15,578 bases of DNA from an uncultured Clostridia bacterium. Its GTDB lineage: Bacteria; Bacillota; Clostridia; Christensenellales; UBA1242. The stretch spans positions 1-15,578 of the forward strand of contig CALVUB010000010.1 of assembly GCA_944363385.1 (NCBI GenBank). Reading direction: 5' to 3'. The notes under the pieces were generated by a model. It ran no database searches. It saw only the letters and a list, made by a program, of their open reading frames with translations, and was not told the origin of the DNA. Both the position numbers and the translations under genes were made by a program. Positions 7,569-15,578 of the stretch are shown here, piece by piece (the first letter of the stretch is position 1; each line of letters opens with the position of its first letter).

Positions 7569-8390
7569 ATGAGAAAAAATTGGACAGCATTTAAAAGTCT
7601 TCATAAACATAACAAAATTTTTAGAATTGTCAATCTTGTTGTTATGGGCGCGCTCTGCCTTACATGTGTTGCGCTTGCTTTCTATTACGGACTAGTTTAC
7701 GATCCAAACAATCGTATTGTGCCTGCCATCTGTATTGCTCTTCTATCGCTTGTGCCACTTGTGATTGAAGTGATTTTTGGGCGAAGATTTAACAATGTTG
7801 TCTTTCTTGCCATCGAAGTATATCTTATCTTTGCAGGGCTTGTTGGCTCTGTGCTAAATGTTTACTATCTTGTCAGTTGGTATGACATTGTGATTCATAT
7901 CTTGATGGGTTACTTAGTCGCTATGTGTGGAATATTTGTAATTTCAAGACTTGGTAACTATAAAAAAATGAATGTTATTTTGGTTGCCTTTTTCTGCCTT
8001 TGTTTTTCTCTTGCTATTGAAGTTTTTTGGGAAATCTTTGAGTGGGGAGCTGATAATTTATTCAATCAAACTATGCAAGGTGAAAAATTGCCAGGAGTCA
8101 ACCAGCCACTTGTGGGCGACACTATGCTTGACCTTGTTTGTAACACCACTGGCGCATCGGTATTTTTCTTTCATTTTTTGATTGGAAAGTTATCGCGCAA
8201 GAGTTTGGGTATAAATTTTATTGAGAAACAATTGATGAAAGAAGAGTTTGTGTTTGATGAAAAGCACTCTGGCATTGAAAATGTTGAAAAGGCTGAGCAA
8301 AAAGAAGTTGCAAACGACATTTCTCAGATACAAAACATTATCAAAAAACCTGACAAAGTCAAACGCGCTAAGTCGCAAAAGAAGAGTTAA
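7569..8390 (+). CDS. DUF2238/YjdF-like polytopic membrane protein
   Basis: A 273-residue integral membrane protein with about six hydrophobic segments (near 21-43, 52-70, 78-100, 106-126, 136-155 and 190-207). It ends in a long, charged, Lys/Glu-rich cytoplasmic-type tail (about 208-273). Polar residues inside or beside the membrane follow the DUF2238 (YjdF) pattern: YDIVIH with H110 and G114, EVFWEIFEWGAD (151-162), and DTMLDLVCNTTG (184-195). These buried acidic and His residues suggest a metal or proton site, but no function is established. AGGAG (7558-7562) inside the end of valS supports the start, only one base after the valS stop. It is last in the cysS-valS operon, before the terminator at 8406-8437. 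The family call is by motif recognition; the charged tail looks longer than I would expect. Confidence 0.7.
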   Translation: MRKNWTAFKSLHKHNKIFRIVNLVVMGALCLTCVALAFYYGLVYDPNNRIVPAICIALLSLVPLVIEVIFGRRFNNVVFLAIEVYLIFAGLVGSVLNVYYLVSWYDIVIHILMGYLVAMCGIFVISRLGNYKKMNVILVAFFCLCFSLAIEVFWEIFEWGADNLFNQTMQGEKLPGVNQPLVGDTMLDLVCNTTGASVFFFHFLIGKLSRKSLGINFIEKQLMKEEFVFDEKHSGIENVEKAEQKEVANDISQIQNIIKKPDKVKRAKSQKKS

Positions 8391-8440: not shown

Positions 8441-10549
8441 TTATTCATGTCTGAGCGACTCAACAGGGTCAAGTCTTGCTGCTTTTGAAGCAGGGTAGAG
8501 ACCTGCAAGCACGCTTATCACAACACTTAAGCCAAGCGCTATAACAAAGTAATACCAGTGGAAAGCAAGAGGAGCAAAGCCGAGAAGTGAATTGAAAAGC
8601 AGTATCAACAATCCGCCTACAACAGCTGAGAAGATAACTCCTACAATTCCGCTGAAAAGCCCAATTAAAAAGCTTTCAGTTGTAAAAATTTTCTTTATAT
8701 CTCTCTTTCTTGCACCAATTGATTTGAGAACGCCAATTTCGCGAGTCCTCTCTGAAACGCTCATATACAGCACCACCAAAATCATAATCATTGCAACAAT
8801 CAGCGAAATTCCAGCTATGATTGCAAGGGCAATTGAGAAGGTTGACATCATTTCATTAAACATGCTTGCCATCTGATTTTCCACCGAACCTGTGTAGCCT
8901 TGCATGCCTGATAAGATAAGGTTTATTGTGTCGGTTGTGGCTTCGCTGTCTGTTTGAATGTAGAGTGAAGTTGGACTTAGCGTTCCGCCATTTGTTGTTA
9001 CCATGCTGTCAAAATAGTCATAATCAAGATAGGCAACAAGCATAGTTTCAAACATACTTACATCAACAATGCCCGTGATTTTGCATTTTTGTTCGATGCT
9101 AATTGCATTTGGAAATTGACCATAAGACGCTTTCACAGTCACTATTTGACCGATTGCATCTTCATAATTTTCTAGTCCCATTTCGCTTGCAATTTTTGCT
9201 GATACCATGATTTCGCCAAGCATTTCACCACTTTCTTCATCAAGTTTTGGTTGACCAGCAAGCTCACCAGCAAGCATTTGCTCTTCTGTGTAATATGGAG
9301 GAGTGGTGTAGAGATAGAAGATGTTTGAAGATTTTTCTTCGCCATCAACAGTAAAGTTGATTGATGCAGATTTTGTAACACCAGTTGCTGCAGAAAAACC
9401 ATATTTTATGCCATCTTGTGAAACACGATATTCTATGTTTGGATATTTTTCTTCAAGAGCACTGTTTATATTTTCTATAATTTGTGGGATTTCTTCATCG
9501 GTAAATGGTGTTGGATTTAATAGACTCATTATTTCTCCGCCAAGTCCGCCCATGCCACCTGAAGGGTCGTCTGCCATTTCATCAACTTTATTGACAGTCA
9601 CGATTGTTGGATTTGAATAGGACTTGGCAAGTGAGTCGATGTAGCCAGTAAGTCCAGAGCCAAACGCCAGCATCAAAATCATTGAGATAAGCGAAATTGT
9701 TACGCCGAGAGCCATTAAAAAGTTTTTGGTTCTGCTTGCCCACATGTTATGTAAAGAAAGTCTTATTGAAGAGTAGAGTGATAGGTGGCCTTCTTTTTTA
9801 GGTTTGGCTGAATTTTCTTGAGTGTTTTCTATAAGTTTTTCTGCATGTTTTTCTTTCTTATAGTCTTTTTCAATTTCATCTCTTATTATCTTTCCGTCTG
9901 CAAGTTCTACAACGCGAGAAGAGATGCTTGCAACCTTTTCCGAGTGAGTGACCATGATAACCAATTTTCCGTCATCAGCAATTTCTTTCATAATGTCAAG
10001 AATTTGCAGTGTCGTCATGCTGTCAAGCGAGCCAGTTGGTTCATCTGCCAAAATGATATCAGGGTCGTTTATCAGCGCTCTTGCAATGGCAACTCTTTGT
10101 TTTTGTCCGCCAGAGAGTTGTGTAGGTTTTTTCTTCAGCTGATTTTCAAGTCCAAGTTTTTTTAATATAGCTTTGGCTCGTTCAAGTTTTTCATTTTCTT
10201 TGACATCAGAAAGAGTTAAGGCAATGGTGACGTTATCAAGGATTGAAAGGTGAGGAATAAGATTGAAAGATTGAAAAACAAAGCCGATTTTCTTTTTTCG
10301 ATAATCGTCTAACTGTTTTTCTTTGAATGATTTTAGGTCAATTCCGCCTATCTTTATCTCGCCAGTATAGTCAGAATCGAGACCGCCAATCAAGTTCATA
10401 AGTGTGCTTTTTCCACTTCCGCTTTCACCTATGATTGACACAAGTTCGCCCTTTTCAAAGGAAATATTAATGTCGCTTAGAGCATTAAATTTTGACTTGT
10501 TGCCCAGTTTGTAGTCTTTATAGACATGATTGATTTCAAGTTCGCTCAT
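8441..10549 (-). CDS. MacB-like fused ABC ATPase-permease
   Basis: A 702-residue MacB/FtsX-type (type VII ABC) protein. The N-terminal ATPase has Walker A GESGSGKST (41-49), Q-loop Q93, signature LSGGQ (145-149), Walker B IILADEP (165-171) and H-loop H202. A charged linker (about 225-262) leads to TM1 (about 275-300), a large extracytoplasmic domain (about 300-568) with a Gly/Met-rich patch (328-341), and three C-terminal TM helices (about 570-598, 625-655, 662-684). The conserved cytoplasmic loop RTREIGVLKSIGARKRDI (601-618) and the YPASKAARLDPVESLR end are present. Such proteins dimerise and couple ATP hydrolysis to extracytoplasmic movements, exporting peptides, antibiotics or lipoproteins. 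No membrane-fusion partner or outer-membrane channel is nearby, as expected for a single-membrane cell. A strong GGAGGGA lies in the 17-base gap before its ATG. Last gene of the MarR-ABC operon; substrate unknown. Confidence 0.9.
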   Translation of the reverse strand: MSELEINHVYKDYKLGNKSKFNALSDINISFEKGELVSIIGESGSGKSTLMNLIGGLDSDYTGEIKIGGIDLKSFKEKQLDDYRKKKIGFVFQSFNLIPHLSILDNVTIALTLSDVKENEKLERAKAILKKLGLENQLKKKPTQLSGGQKQRVAIARALINDPDIILADEPTGSLDSMTTLQILDIMKEIADDGKLVIMVTHSEKVASISSRVVELADGKIIRDEIEKDYKKEKHAEKLIENTQENSAKPKKEGHLSLYSSIRLSLHNMWASRTKNFLMALGVTISLISMILMLAFGSGLTGYIDSLAKSYSNPTIVTVNKVDEMADDPSGGMGGLGGEIMSLLNPTPFTDEEIPQIIENINSALEEKYPNIEYRVSQDGIKYGFSAATGVTKSASINFTVDGEEKSSNIFYLYTTPPYYTEEQMLAGELAGQPKLDEESGEMLGEIMVSAKIASEMGLENYEDAIGQIVTVKASYGQFPNAISIEQKCKITGIVDVSMFETMLVAYLDYDYFDSMVTTNGGTLSPTSLYIQTDSEATTDTINLILSGMQGYTGSVENQMASMFNEMMSTFSIALAIIAGISLIVAMIMILVVLYMSVSERTREIGVLKSIGARKRDIKKIFTTESFLIGLFSGIVGVIFSAVVGGLLILLFNSLLGFAPLAFHWYYFVIALGLSVVISVLAGLYPASKAARLDPVESLRHE

Positions 10550-10566
10550 TTTTCCCTCCTTATCTT

Positions 10567-12414
10567 TTAAAAACTCTCACCAGTTTCAAATTGACTTGTA
10601 TAAAGTTCTTTATATGCACCATTTTTCTTAAGAAGCTCATCATGTTTGCCAATTTCAACAATGTTTCCATCTTTCATAACAATGATTTGGTCGGCATTTT
10701 TTATTGTCGACAGACGGTGAGCAATTACAAAACTTGTTCTGCCCTTTGTCAGTCTGTCCATTGCTGTTTGTATCAAGATTTCTGTTCTTGTGTCGACTGA
10801 GCTTGTGGCTTCATCCAAGATAAGCATAGGTGCATTTTGAACCATTGCTCTTGCAATTGTCATAAGTTGTTTTTGTCCTGCAGAGATGCTTGACTCTTCA
10901 CTAAGCACCATGTCGTAACCTTTAGGTTCTGTGCGTATAAAGTGGTCGACATTTGCCATTTGACAGGCTTTTACAACCTCTTCATCTGTTGCGTTTGGAT
11001 TGCCAAAGGCGATGTTATCTTTAATTGTGCCTTCAAACAGCCAAGTATCTTGCAAAACCATGCCAAATAGCGAACGCACATAAGTTCTGTTCATTTGGTC
11101 AGTTGGAATGTCGTCAATCAAGATTTGTCCGCTGTTTATTTCATAAAATCGCATCAAAAGGTTTACGATTGTAGTTTTTCCAGCACCAGTTTGACCAACT
11201 ATAGCAATTTTTTGTCCTGGCAGGGCAGTAAAGTTGAAGTTGTGGATTATCTCTTTTTCTGGAGTGTAGCCAAAAGATACATCTCTAAATTCTACTTTAC
11301 CTTTAATTTTCTTGATTGTCAAGCGTTTTTCGCTTTCATCTGGTTCATCTTTTTCATTTACAAACTCAAAAACGCGCTCGGCAGCAGCAATGGTGGATTG
11401 AAGGGTTGATGAAACTGAAGCAATCTGTTGAATTGGTTGGTTAAACAATTTTGTATATGTCATAAAGGTGATAATTGTTGCAAGAAAAGTTACATCATTT
11501 GATTTCAAGGCGATATAGCCACCCACAAGACATATAAGAACATAGACAAGGTTGCTTGAAAAGACCACTAGCGGATGCACAATGCCAGAGAAAAATTGTG
11601 CTTTTTTTGAAGAAATACGAAGGTTGTTGTTGATTTTGTCAAATTCGTTTTGTGATTTTGCTTCTGCATTAAAGGCTTTTACCACATTGTGAGCAGAAAA
11701 GTTTTCTTCAACATAGCCATCAACATCGGCAAGATATTTTTGTTGTTTTACAAAATATTTTTGATTGTTTTTTACAACCACAAAAATTGTTATAAGCGCG
11801 ATTGGAATTTGAAGCAAAGCCACAAGCGTCAACTGCCAATTTAATGTAAACATAACAATTGGGATGCCTATTATAGTGACTGTGGAGGTGATAAGAGAGG
11901 AGAGCGTTCTTTGCAGAGTATTACCCACAATGTCCACATCGTTAGTCACCCTCGACAAAACATCTCCATAGCTATGTTTGTCAAAGTAGTTGAGTGGAAG
12001 GCGGTTGATTTTCTTTATAATGTCGCTTCTCAGTTTCTTGGAAAGTTGCACAGACACTTTGGACATGCAAAAACCTTGAAAATAGTTTAGAATGGCTGAA
12101 AGAATATAAATGCCAGCTATAATAAGTCCAAATTTGGTGATTTGTGAAAGTTGATAGTTTTGCCCGAAGATAAGCGTCATAAGTTCGTTTAATATTCTTG
12201 GGCCAACAATATTCAAAACGGTTGCCATAATCGCAAAAATAACGGCAACAATCAATAGTGGTTTATATCTGCCAAGGTTTTTAAATAACATTTTGGTTGT
12301 TCCGCGAAAATCTTTTGCTTTGTGAGCTGAGTGGAGCGCCGTTTTTTGTTTGGTTTTCTTTGACTTTTCTTTTGTCACAACCGCTTGATTTAAAGTTGTT
12401 TTTGACTTTTTCAT
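10567..12414 (-). CDS. ABC exporter half-transporter with intact catalytic site (BmrD/LmrD-like)
   Basis: A 615-residue ABC exporter half: six TM helices (about 52-75, 95-115, 172-190, 193-214, 278-302, 308-325), then an ATPase. Motifs: A-loop Y383, Walker A GQTGAGKTT (407-415), Q-loop Q455, Walker B LILDEA with catalytic E535, and H-loop H566. The signature is SISAGQ (509-514), departing from LSGGQ. Paired with the upstream half-transporter it would supply the competent Walker residues to the consensus site and the atypical signature to the degenerate one, as in TM287/288-, BmrCD- and LmrCD-type heterodimers. The first 40 residues are an unusual Lys-rich cytoplasmic tail (11 Lys among residues 1-34). 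The start overlaps the upstream stop as ATGA, with AGGAGG 10 bases before, so expression is coupled and probably one-to-one. Likely multidrug or lipid export; substrate unproven. Confidence 0.93.
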   Translation of the reverse strand: MKKSKTTLNQAVVTKEKSKKTKQKTALHSAHKAKDFRGTTKMLFKNLGRYKPLLIVAVIFAIMATVLNIVGPRILNELMTLIFGQNYQLSQITKFGLIIAGIYILSAILNYFQGFCMSKVSVQLSKKLRSDIIKKINRLPLNYFDKHSYGDVLSRVTNDVDIVGNTLQRTLSSLITSTVTIIGIPIVMFTLNWQLTLVALLQIPIALITIFVVVKNNQKYFVKQQKYLADVDGYVEENFSAHNVVKAFNAEAKSQNEFDKINNNLRISSKKAQFFSGIVHPLVVFSSNLVYVLICLVGGYIALKSNDVTFLATIITFMTYTKLFNQPIQQIASVSSTLQSTIAAAERVFEFVNEKDEPDESEKRLTIKKIKGKVEFRDVSFGYTPEKEIIHNFNFTALPGQKIAIVGQTGAGKTTIVNLLMRFYEINSGQILIDDIPTDQMNRTYVRSLFGMVLQDTWLFEGTIKDNIAFGNPNATDEEVVKACQMANVDHFIRTEPKGYDMVLSEESSISAGQKQLMTIARAMVQNAPMLILDEATSSVDTRTEILIQTAMDRLTKGRTSFVIAHRLSTIKNADQIIVMKDGNIVEIGKHDELLKKNGAYKELYTSQFETGESF

Positions 12415-14162
12415 TTTTCAAGTTCCTCCTCAGAAAGTTGTGAAAGTGCAATCTCACGATAAACCTTGCATTTTTTAAGCAGTTGTTTATGAGTTCCTTT
12501 GCCCACCATTTTGCCCTGGTCAAGCACGATGATTTGGTCGGCATTCATGATAGTTCCAATCCTTTGAGCAACAATCACTTTGGTTGTGTTTTTATATTCC
12601 TCATTCAGCTTTTGTCTTACAGTTTTGTCAGTTTTATAGTCAAGCGCTGAAAAACTGTCATCAAAAATCAAAATATCAGGGTCTTTGATAAGCGCTCTTG
12701 CAATAGACAGACGCTGTTTTTGCCCTCCTGAAACATTTTTGCCACCTTGCGACACATGATAGTCAAGCCCGTTTGGCAATTCATAAACAAAACCCGCTTC
12801 TGATATGTCAAGCACCTTGGCTATTTCTTCACTAGTTGCGTCTTCTTTACCATATTTAAGGTTAGATTTGACCGTTCCGCTAAACAGCACACCTTTTTGT
12901 GGCACATAACCAATGATATCATGAAGCTGTTGTTGAGTGTAGTCTTTAACATTTTGACCGTTGACTAAAATTTCGCCGTCAGAGCAGTCATAAAAGCGTG
13001 GTATAAGATTGATAAGAGTGCTTTTTCCACTTCCAGTCGAACCAATAAATGCCACAGTTTGACCTGGCTTTACAGAAAAAGAAATGTTTTCAAGCACATC
13101 AGCATCGGCATCAGGATAGCGGAATGAAACATCTTTAAATTCAATTGTGCCTTTGCTTGGGTTTTCATTTGTAAGGTTTCCGTCTTGCAAGCTGGTTTTT
13201 GTGTCAAGCACCTCGTTGATACGCTTTGCGCAGACAATGCCTCTAGGCACAAGCATAAACAAGATTGAAAGAGAAGTAAACGACATGATGATAAACATTG
13301 AATATTGAGTAAAGGCGCTCATTACAAGCAAAAGTTGAGGATTTTCTCCTGCAAGCAGACCGATAATCCAAACAATTGCAAGTGTTGTGCCTTGCATGAT
13401 GGTTGAAAGGGCAGGCTCAATAATCATCAACACTTTGTCAACATAAAATTCAAGTTTTGCAAATCGAGAGTTGACTCTTTCAAATTTTTCTTCCTGTTCT
13501 TTTTCAGCGCCAACTGCACGAATAACTTTAAGCCCTGTAAGATTTTCACGAGTGACCATGTTGAGTTTGTCGGTTCCTGCTTGAATTTTTTTAAACTTTG
13601 GCAAAACCAAAATGGTGATTAATAGCACCACAAAGATGATTGCAAGCACAGAAACAATATTGACCCAAGATAATGTTCCAGCGCCATAGTCGCGTGAAAG
13701 GTCAACGATTTTTATAATCGCAAAAATTGCCGTCATTGGAGCGGTAAGTCCAAGCGTTATTGTGGAGGTGTAAACCTGTTGAAGCTGAGTGATATCGTTT
13801 GTAGAGCGGGTTATAAGCGATGGCACTGAGAACTTATTGATTTCAGTTGCAGAAAAATCATTGACGCGGGCAAAAATTTTGCTTCTTATTCTTGCAAGAA
13901 GTGAAGAAACAATTATTGAAGCAAGATATTGAGCCACGATTGCACAAACAACCACGCCTACCACAAACAAAAGCATTTGCACGCAAGTCCAAACAATATC
14001 GTTCCAATAAGGCGAAATGTCAGGTATAGACAAATACTCGCTTATCTTTAAGGTATACTCAGGAATAGTGATGTTGCACCAAACTTGAACAGCCAAAAAA
14101 GCGAGGGTAACAACAAGCAGTATCCATTCTTTTGTCTTTAAATATTTTAAAAGTTTAAACAT
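12411..14162 (-). CDS. ABC exporter half-transporter with degenerate catalytic site (BmrC/LmrC-like)
   Basis: A 583-residue ABC exporter half: six TM helices (about 12-34, 55-85, 138-155, 168-188, 245-272, 278-305) and a C-terminal ATPase. Walker A GSTGSGKST (374-382), Q-loop Q422 and signature VSGGQ (477-481) are intact. The Walker B region reads ILIFDDSFSALD: Asp502 replaces the catalytic Glu, and the H-loop residue is Gln533 (VAQRIGT). These two changes mark the non-hydrolytic site of heterodimeric exporters such as TM287, BmrC and LmrC. The partner is the next gene. The start overlaps the MarR stop by 8 bases with GGAG (14170-14173) 7 bases before the ATG, so it is coupled to its regulator. 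The degenerate residues are part of normal asymmetric function, not signs of decay. Confidence 0.94.
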   Translation of the reverse strand: MFKLLKYLKTKEWILLVVTLAFLAVQVWCNITIPEYTLKISEYLSIPDISPYWNDIVWTCVQMLLFVVGVVVCAIVAQYLASIIVSSLLARIRSKIFARVNDFSATEINKFSVPSLITRSTNDITQLQQVYTSTITLGLTAPMTAIFAIIKIVDLSRDYGAGTLSWVNIVSVLAIIFVVLLITILVLPKFKKIQAGTDKLNMVTRENLTGLKVIRAVGAEKEQEEKFERVNSRFAKLEFYVDKVLMIIEPALSTIMQGTTLAIVWIIGLLAGENPQLLLVMSAFTQYSMFIIMSFTSLSILFMLVPRGIVCAKRINEVLDTKTSLQDGNLTNENPSKGTIEFKDVSFRYPDADADVLENISFSVKPGQTVAFIGSTGSGKSTLINLIPRFYDCSDGEILVNGQNVKDYTQQQLHDIIGYVPQKGVLFSGTVKSNLKYGKEDATSEEIAKVLDISEAGFVYELPNGLDYHVSQGGKNVSGGQKQRLSIARALIKDPDILIFDDSFSALDYKTDKTVRQKLNEEYKNTTKVIVAQRIGTIMNADQIIVLDQGKMVGKGTHKQLLKKCKVYREIALSQLSEEELEK

Positions 14163-14589
14163 TTTTTTTCTCCATATTATTTACAATTCTTTGTGCTTTA
14201 TTTGAAATTTTTTCTAAAACAGTTTTAATAATTTCAAGGTCTTGTTTGTCAACTTCTTCAAGCAGAAGTTGATGCCAAGCGGAAGAATGTTTTTCAAATT
14301 CTTTTGCAACAATCTCTCCTTTGTCAGTCAAATTTACCAAATCTTGACAGTTTTGCATAAGTTTTTTGTCAATAAGTTCTTTAACCATGCGGTGAGTGTA
14401 ACTTTTGTCGCATTCTGCGATTTTTGAAAGCGCAGATTGTTTGAGAGCGCCTTCTTTAAAAAGGATGTGCAAAAACTGAGCTTGCCCAGCTGTCACTTCA
14501 AACAATTTAAGTTTGTAGTTCATATAACTTTCAAAGGATTTCTTAAGCAAAAAAATTTCACTTTTGAGCGGAAAACAAGTTTTTTTCAT
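14155..14589 (-). CDS. MarR-family regulator of the ABC exporter operon
   Basis: A 144-residue MarR-type winged helix-turn-helix protein, usual length. The helix-turn-helix covers about residues 50-78 (LSKIAECDKS, then recognition helix YTHRMVKELIDKKL). The wing ends in VNLTDKG (85-91) and is short, lacking the usual DxR motif. N- and C-terminal helices (about 8-30 and 100-140) would form the dimer interface. Cysteines at 5, 60 and 81, one beside the recognition helix and one in the wing, could be redox-sensitive, but this is speculation. GAGGA (14596-14600) is 6 bases before the ATG. First gene of the operon, followed by two ABC halves and a MacB-like protein. The palindrome over its -35 suggests it represses itself and the exporters until a drug or other ligand binds. 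Confidence 0.88.
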   Translation of the reverse strand: MKKTCFPLKSEIFLLKKSFESYMNYKLKLFEVTAGQAQFLHILFKEGALKQSALSKIAECDKSYTHRMVKELIDKKLMQNCQDLVNLTDKGEIVAKEFEKHSSAWHQLLLEEVDKQDLEIIKTVLEKISNKAQRIVNNMEKKNV

Positions 14590-14772: not shown

Positions 14773-14777
14773 GGAGG
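14773..14777 (+). promoter_or_regulatory. Ribosome binding site fixing the solenoid-protein start
   Basis: GGAGG, a perfect Shine-Dalgarno core, lies 5 bases before the ATG at 14783 and decides the start of the open-ended reading frame there. Confidence 0.85.
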
Positions 14778-14782
14778 TTTTT

Positions 14783-15578
14783 ATGTGGTTTAAAAGAAAA
14801 GAAAAGGTTGTTGACCCAATTATTCATGATGAAGAGTCAAACTTTTCACTCTCAAGCGGGGTGCATATTTTAAACAAGTGCCAAAATGTGTCTCTTAGTG
14901 GAAATGCTATTGTGCTTGAAAGTTTTGATTGCTCTTTCAGTGAAATTAGTGGAAAGGCAAAAGTGCAAATGGTGGAAAACGGACAAATCACCAGGCTTTG
15001 TGGCAAAGCCAAAATTGGTCTTTTTAAAAGCGGAAAAATCACAACTGTCGAAGGTAAAAGCTCAATAACAACTATCAGTTCTTGCGTGATTGACTATGTG
15101 CGCGGAAAAAGCACCATTGGAACGATGAATGGTGGATTTATTCGCTTTGTTGACGAAAAGGCAGAACTTGCAACTATGACAGAGGGCGAGGTTATGTTTG
15201 TGCGAAACAAGGCGCGAGTTGTCACCATGATTGATGGGCAAATCACTGGAATTTTCAACAATGCCAAGCTTGTTTCAATGCTTAACGGAAAGATAACCTA
15301 TCTTTTAAATGAGGGCAAAATTGGCACAATCAACAACGGCAACATCGAACTTATTGCTGACAGCAGTGAAATTTCAACCTTAAATAAGGGGAAAATTCAT
15401 GAAATGATAGGAAAAAGCTTGATTTCTGCAAACATGGCAGGCGAAATTGAATATCAAGACAAGCAAACAATTGTTCTTTACTCTCCACAAGAAAGCGCAA
15501 AGCGTATGGCGGAGTATAAACAGGTGAAAGAAGAGGCAAAACAAAATGCTGAAGAAAATCCTGTTATAACTCAAGACC
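14783..15578 (+). CDS. Predicted beta-solenoid repeat protein, 3' end outside the window
   Basis: An open reading frame of 265 codons plus one base, running off the window without a stop. I do not recognise a named family. A short hydrophobic/basic N-terminus (MWFKRKEK) is followed by polar residues, then residues 57-226 form ten consecutive 17-residue units, each a 9-residue half (x-x-A/S-x-I/V-x-x-hydrophobic-x) and an 8-residue half (x-G-x-I-x-x-I/V-x). Residues 23-56 fit two more degenerate units. Regular Gly/Asn turns and alternating Ile/Val/Leu imply a right-handed beta-helix or similar solenoid. The tail (227-265) is charged and probably disordered. There is no signal peptide or TM helix, so it is probably cytoplasmic. 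Rung size, N-terminal peptide and tail resemble bactofilins, cytoskeletal polymers, but this is fold-level inference; a surface or fibre protein is possible. It has its own promoter, divergent from the exporter operon. Confidence 0.8.
   Translation, partial: MWFKRKEKVVDPIIHDEESNFSLSSGVHILNKCQNVSLSGNAIVLESFDCSFSEISGKAKVQMVENGQITRLCGKAKIGLFKSGKITTVEGKSSITTISSCVIDYVRGKSTIGTMNGGFIRFVDEKAELATMTEGEVMFVRNKARVVTMIDGQITGIFNNAKLVSMLNGKITYLLNEGKIGTINNGNIELIADSSEISTLNKGKIHEMIGKSLISANMAGEIEYQDKQTIVLYSPQESAKRMAEYKQVKEEAKQNAEENPVITQD
14951..15460 (+). repeat. Ten in-frame 51-base coding units (17-residue protein repeats)
   Basis: Codons 57-226 divide without gaps into ten 17-codon units starting at residues 57, 74, 91, 108, 125, 142, 159, 176, 193 and 210. 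The period holds at protein level, while the DNA of the units has diverged, so this is an old, selected repeat rather than a recent tandem duplication. Confidence 0.8.

Follow-up and report, generated by a model that had tools for sequence, protein, structure and literature searches.

A clade-restricted beta-solenoid protein of gut Clostridia with a possible role as a membrane-peripheral scaffold

The solenoid gene and its predicted structure

We analyzed a 15,578-nucleotide stretch (the window) of an uncultured Clostridia bacterium (GCA_944363385.1, contig CALVUB010000010.1), in which the last gene, on the plus strand at 14783..15578, encodes a beta-solenoid protein. The ATG at 14783, as placed by an earlier sequence-only reading of this DNA, is correct; a Shine-Dalgarno-like GGAGG lies at 14773..14777 on the same strand, and GGAGG, GGAG, GAGG or GGGGG precede the starts in the relatives listed. 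The gene begins with the putative membrane-targeting peptide MWFKRKEKV (codons 1-9, 14783..14809, plus strand), which was marked out by a hydrophobic-then-basic rule and by comparison with the bactofilin consensus. It is followed by DPIIHDEE (codons 11-18, 14813..14836), a segment before the first rung that is conserved in the family; K8, P12 and H15 are near-invariant there. The solenoid occupies codons 23-226 (14849..15460), with rungs of exactly 17 residues each. A helix predicted after the last rung (codons 235-258, 15485..15556; DSSP of the AlphaFold2 model) leads into the start of the tail (15557..15578).

Position 15578 is the end of the contig, where the frame is still open, so that the window covers 265 of the protein's approximately 308 residues. 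The missing 3' part, ending in KQMKIDDITN, is found on another contig of the same genome (C85), the minus strand of which begins with the open frame NPVIPQDQPQEKQEEEKQYNESLTERVEEEPAKPKKKAKSKQMKIDDITN and a stop, with a membrane transporter gene starting about 16 bases further on. Since the window tail ends in EENPVITQD and one of the seven residues shared with C85 differs (L117, 3241-3411), the two contigs (G000:C10 and G000:C85) may come from slightly different strains. A relative that is 97% identical (L022) carries the entire 308-codon gene on one contig, and complete relatives span 250-354 amino acids.

AlphaFold2 returned a confident solenoid followed by a helix, with a predicted local distance difference test score (pLDDT) of 92.9 and a predicted template modeling score (pTM) of 0.82. 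Strands were in register over residues 21-230 (block-mean pLDDT 94-98), and the block means for residues 231-260 were 88, 87 and 69, falling below 50 for residues 260-265. This confident model supports the solenoid proposed from the letters alone; a confident prediction lacking one was not obtained.

The repeat itself was as the sequence-only reading had described it: ten gap-free units of 9+8 residues at residues 57-226 (14951-15460), with no insertion or deletion. In the 9-residue half, unit position 3 was Ala or Ser in nine of the ten units (Gly 178 in the remaining one) and position 5 was Ile, Val or Leu in all ten; in the 8-residue half, with its G-x-I/V pattern, position 11 was Gly in nine units (Cys 101 otherwise) and position 13 Ile or Val in every one. 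Because the register already begins at residue 23 (LSSGVHILNKCQNVSLS, GNAIVLESFDCSFSEIS), the rung total is about twelve, not ten. The window protein showed 61 identities at lag 17, and none of 2000 shuffles came near this number; its mean BLOSUM62 score was +1.00 at lag 17 and +0.63 at lag 34, with a shuffle maximum of -0.16 at any lag from 5 to 39. The same period runs through the family, where 61 of 63 distinct proteins, the window protein included, were long enough for the lag test and gave a best lag of 17 in 51 cases and 34 in the other 10. The model confidently predicts a rigid rod built of some twelve beta rungs, each 17 residues long.

A previously unnamed and clade-restricted family

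Searches with the solenoid protein gave no Pfam match at an expectation value (E) of 0.01, with only sub-threshold ones at E up to 10, and nothing in the PDB sequences at E up to 10. No NCBIfam or Pfam match reached its cut-off, and PHROGs matched only at E 0.029 and above. The matches to Ppnp, MJ0548_C and PHROGs (E 0.029 to 0.57, below curated cut-offs where such exist) were rejected, as was an RTX identity, the GGxGxD pattern being absent. The match to a known enzyme, surface or phage family that would have refuted the sequence-only reading was not found above any curated cut-off. The family is also unnamed in the titles or abstract openings on bactofilins, beta-solenoids and Christensenellales that we searched, a coverage with most subscription journals outside it.

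Among 5.8 billion proteins, a single-sequence query found 8 relatives and an alignment query found 10 (8000 candidates scored), including P0009, which is 38% identical. A scan of genome_contigs yielded 49 loci from metagenome assemblies labeled Clostridia, Clostridiales, Firmicutes or Christensenella. The gene is present in 66 of the genus's 112 genomes; G091 is not among them, its match (E 0.0026, with two internal stops) being taken as due to chance. Order-wide, 20 of 396 genomes match; all belong to a single family, and they represent 4 of the 142 genera. The carriers are gut Clostridia with small genomes of roughly 1 Mb. In hhalign, the solenoids of the genus found six proteins of other genera together with P0009 at 100% probability (E 2.5e-74). 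The ratio of non-synonymous to synonymous substitution rates (dN/dS) was 0.036, 0.031 and 0.055 in the three computable pairs, two of them with dS near saturation (2.6 and 2.1 for L026 and L028); for L024, dS was not computable and no ratio was obtained. Since all three ratios fall within 0.031-0.055, the gene is under strong purifying selection. Taken together, the solenoid family is real, clade-restricted and previously unnamed.

Gene neighborhood and loss of the solenoid

The search for orthologues and neighbors that had been suggested with the sequence-only reading thus found relatives in four genera of one family, and it also revealed a recurrent gene context. Our neighborhood set comprised the window and the 49 loci, and 48 members of this set hold the solenoid as an open reading frame (ORF) of its family. 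In all 46 loci of the genome_contigs scan having a following ORF, the next gene on the same strand encodes an ArsP_2-like transporter (fam1), at a gap of -1 to 238 bases (median 24.5). The fam1 member of L024 matched NF037962, 'arsenic efflux protein', at 262 bits (cut-off 100) and PF11449 at 77 bits (cut-off 32.5). After fam1, 36 loci continue with a Rho_N-containing protein, Lgt, a small family-less protein and a DivIVA-like protein. The last of these is not above the DivIVA cut-off (PF05103 19.6 and 17.4 bits against 28 in two proteins; TIGR03544 17.7 against 22). The Rho_N-containing protein of L024 (10140-11279), between the transporter and Lgt, has only sub-threshold Rho matches and looks like a degenerate Rho paralogue.

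On the other side, a MarR-type regulator (14155..14589, minus strand; Pfam MarR 25.3 bits, cut-off 24.6) is the divergent neighbor in the window, and of the 45 loci that have an upstream ORF, 31 have a member of its family (fam8, minus strand) as the upstream neighbor. In the window this regulator belongs to a cluster at 8441-14589 on the minus strand, divergent from the solenoid gene, with two ATP-binding cassette (ABC) half-exporters and a MacB/FtsX-type ABC transporter; the cluster recurs beside the solenoid gene in most of the 49 related loci. Between the valyl-tRNA synthetase (ValRS) frame and the exporter genes, 7569-8390 encodes a DUF2238-like membrane protein, whose 24.9 bits fall short of the 26.4 cut-off.

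Matches to fam1 occur in 106 of the 112 genomes of the genus. In nine solenoid-free loci (L118-L126), no solenoid adjoins fam1. Eight of them have a MacB-type gene on the 5' side of fam1, directly or past a MarR-like or one other gene, and L124 has ribosomal protein genes there. In all nine, the Lgt/DivIVA-like cluster is oriented towards the transporter, so a local rearrangement accompanies the solenoid's loss. We also built a midpoint-rooted tree of 34 hand-picked fam1 proteins, 25 from solenoid loci and 9 from solenoid-free ones. The nine solenoid-free members formed one clade (support 100/99) with the solenoid-bearing other genera outside it, so the gene was, most simply, lost once in the sampled tree.

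A membrane-peripheral scaffold as the favored reading

PMC12448750 describes a bactofilin targeting peptide with the consensus MFSKKKK, a BacA peptide MFSKQAKS in which F2 and K4/K7 are important, and bactofilin tails that are typically poorly conserved. We compared the solenoids with 29 bactofilins taken from a survey of 148 genomes of the class (originally 30; L155 was removed as a wrong ORF). The hydrophobic-then-basic rule for the N-terminus was satisfied by 54 of 63 distinct solenoids and 23 of the 29 bactofilins. Of 575 other ORFs in the solenoid loci, a group that includes two solenoid fragments, of L067 and L068, 93 satisfied it.

The reading that we favor, and to which we give about an even chance, is that the solenoid protein is a cytoplasmic, membrane-peripheral scaffold functioning like a bactofilin. 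Bactofilins form non-polar filaments that need no nucleotide. Specifically, the first seven to nine residues (M-x-hydrophobic-K/R-K/R) would insert into the inner leaflet in the manner of the bactofilin targeting peptide, and the rods would align, either end to end or laterally, along the membrane in a nucleotide-free manner. Such an array could concentrate or position membrane clients, with the co-encoded transporter as a plausible first candidate, and the disordered tail, which by eye is acidic and then lysine-rich, would present a short Q-h-x-h motif recruiting a further cytoplasmic partner. Of the two, we are less sure of polymerization than of membrane attachment. In favor of the scaffold are the confident solenoid model, the exact period of 17 across the family, the N-terminal rule and the recurrent tail motif. 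The transporter gene that follows the solenoid also counts for it, in the 46 scan loci, in L111-L113, more distant loci of the genus, and in L107-L110. So does the result that no bactofilin was above cut-off in the 37 genomes searched within the genus, though 44 of 148 genomes drawn from the class have one.

Several observations weigh against this scaffold. A stricter N-terminal rule fits 55 of 63 solenoids and 65 of 575 other ORFs, but only 7 of 29 bactofilins; it also fits 26 of 36 fam7 and 17 of 73 ABC proteins, two membrane-protein families, and it misses 4 of 6 proteins of other genera (P0009, one of these, has Asp 5). Since the stricter rule fits few bactofilins and many members of these two families, the likeness of the N-terminus to the bactofilin peptide is suggestive only. 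The rule is moreover crude, and the starts of the 575 comparison ORFs are uncurated. The cytoplasmic placement was read from the N-terminus by eye. In the predicted model, the helix at residues 235-258 could cap one end of the rod. The structural matches are generic solenoids; the absence of bactofilin from the 50 matches listed (155 of 156 Foldseek-ranked chains aligned) carries no evidential weight. The genomic context is also imperfect, as Lgt and DivIVA-like genes are not neighbors in the other genera read, the solenoid of L106 (G431, a third further genus) stands alone without an adjoining transporter, and in L114 (G011, same genus) fam1 is not beside the solenoid. Finally, of the 46 genomes of the genus that lack the solenoid, 43 still have a fam1 match, so the transporter does not need the solenoid.

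Alternative readings

The last observations bear equally on the strongest alternative, in which the solenoid is a monomeric adaptor or regulator of the ArsP_2-like transporter, that is, a peripheral cytoplasmic subunit with its N-terminus at the membrane and no polymer. The pairing of the two genes speaks for it: besides the short gap between them, solenoid-then-transporter is the sole linkage persisting across genera, being all that is retained in two further genera (L107-L110). The transporter retained in solenoid-free genomes and the unpaired solenoids of L106 and L114 argue against such a subunit, and a twelve-rung rod seems, in our opinion, larger than it would require. We regard an adaptor as possible, at about half the chance of the scaffold.

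The tail suggests a different partner. After the incomplete L001, L063, L067 and L068 were dropped, 51 of 59 complete distinct proteins contained the motif Q[LMVT][KESRQ][LIMF], against a mean of 2.7 and a maximum of 10 in 2000 shuffles (relatedness uncorrected). Proteins that bind the DNA sliding clamp can carry a hexapeptide of the consensus QLxLxL. PMC12309361 gives QL[S/D]LF or QxxLF as the clamp-binding consensus and QLSLPL as a tight binder. By hand count, 14 of the 51 tail motifs come near the penta- or hexapeptide form: three pentapeptide-like (QVSMF, QTSIL and QTSLL, as in QVSMFDD of L015, QTSILD of L107 and QTSLLE of L108) and eleven hexapeptide-like (QMELDL, QMELEL, QMKLNL, QMKLDL, QLKLDL and QLKLNL). 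In addition, GQF[ST][MI]FD or GQYSLFD occurs in the probable DnaE of all six genomes read (L174-L179), as QFSMFD, QFTMFD, QFSIFD or QYSLFD, which is close to the QVSMFD of the L015 tail. These polymerase ORFs are probably DnaE, judging by their length and partial matches to the PolC profile, and no PolC was above cut-off in 7 genomes; the polymerase ORFs of L164-L166 were cut by the locus ends, and their C-terminal parts were read separately. A membrane-bound solenoid array tethering or sensing the replisome through its tail could be imagined from this likeness, but none of the 51 motifs is exactly QxxLF, 37 (QMKIDD, QLKIDD, QMKMEE, QLKIGD and others) are non-hydrophobic at both positions 5 and 6, and 8 of the 59 complete proteins have no motif at all. 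The MutS of the lineage offered no clear canonical clamp motif for comparison (the longest ORF of L173 encoded a different protein). We therefore treat the clamp-like motif as a lead, and clamp binding as improbable.

The sequence-only reading had also suggested a bactofilin-like scaffold. Its likeness in plan was supported, with an N-terminal peptide, a solenoid and a tail, but membership was not. PF04519 gave no match to the solenoid protein at E up to 10, and the profile comparison by hhalign of the solenoid family with the 29 Clostridia bactofilins returned a probability of 0.8% (E 0.068), whereas two halves of the bactofilin set found each other at 100 (E 7.6e-56). A true but extremely diverged bactofilin would agree with the common plan and with the rung length, which may be similar: the strongest lag among the 29 bactofilins was 33 in 19, 6 in 5, 39 in 4 and 34 in 1, and lag 33 may be read as two rungs. 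It would also fit the genomes, as none of the 37 searched within the genus had a PF04519 match above cut-off, against matches in 44 of the 148 genomes drawn from the class, a survey that included one genome (G200) from the other genera of the solenoid's family. Against it, besides the profile results, stands a predicted core of about 220 residues, compared with about 110 (PMC12448750) in the right-handed triangular beta-helix of bactofilins. We consider bactofilin descent unlikely, about on a par with clamp binding; plausibly the solenoid works like a bactofilin, and descent from one is without sequence support. One weak bactofilin match of 19.3 bits, the only one in the 37 genomes, lies within a 924-residue frame (L079, G023:C1:45339-45638).

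The same reading had placed the protein in a lineage with poorly known cell-shape proteins. This view was weakened by MreB profile matches in all 41 relatives searched, 38 through a frame, whole or partial, of MreB size and three (G015, G047 and G049) only through a frame, probably DnaK, of about 620-650 residues. It was weakened further in that 103 of the genus's 112 genomes contain a relative of the DivIVA-like gene. In view of the 41 MreB profile matches, we dropped the idea of the solenoid as an MreB replacement.

The boldest combination, a second and independent class of nucleotide-free solenoid cytoskeleton whose clamp-binding tail couples membrane, metal transporter and replisome, is a long shot, slightly less probable than clamp binding itself; it would belong to reduced-genome Clostridia, where none of 37 genomes of the genus gave a bactofilin above cut-off. 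That the solenoid is exported, adhesive, ice-binding or of phage origin is very improbable, and exported, adhesin and phage identities were rejected: by eye, the first residues are rich in Lys and Arg and show no hydrophobic stretch resembling a signal, the viral_contigs, phage and plasmid collections yielded no relative, and the chromosomal place of the gene is steady.

Implications and comparison with known systems

If the scaffold reading is true, a second protein family has arrived at the bactofilin plan of membrane peptide, solenoid and adaptor tail, and it could be asked which features nucleotide-free membrane filaments require. As the solenoid is encoded by a single small gene, the question can be tested directly. 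The family also provides a marker gene, most simply lost once in the sampled tree, for uncultured gut bacteria whose genomes are about 1 Mb in size.

Among known solenoids, the top structural match is 3p4g, a beta-helical antifreeze protein from an Antarctic bacterium and likewise a long regular solenoid. That protein is an exported, calcium-dependent ice binder, whereas the family described here lacks GGxGxD, and the two are 8% identical. Pentapeptide-repeat proteins (HetL, 3du1; QnrB1, 2xtx) differ in having rungs of 20 residues, compared with 17 here, and a pentapeptide pattern that the solenoid family lacks. The synthetic beta1 solenoids (4yfo, 4yei and 4yc5) are designed proteins and unrelated. 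Unlike the bactofilins (PF04519), the solenoid family has a predicted C-terminal helix and a recurrent tail motif, and its core is roughly double theirs in length; it resembles them, Caulobacter BacA included, in its solenoid core, its short hydrophobic-basic N-terminal peptide and its unstructured flanks.
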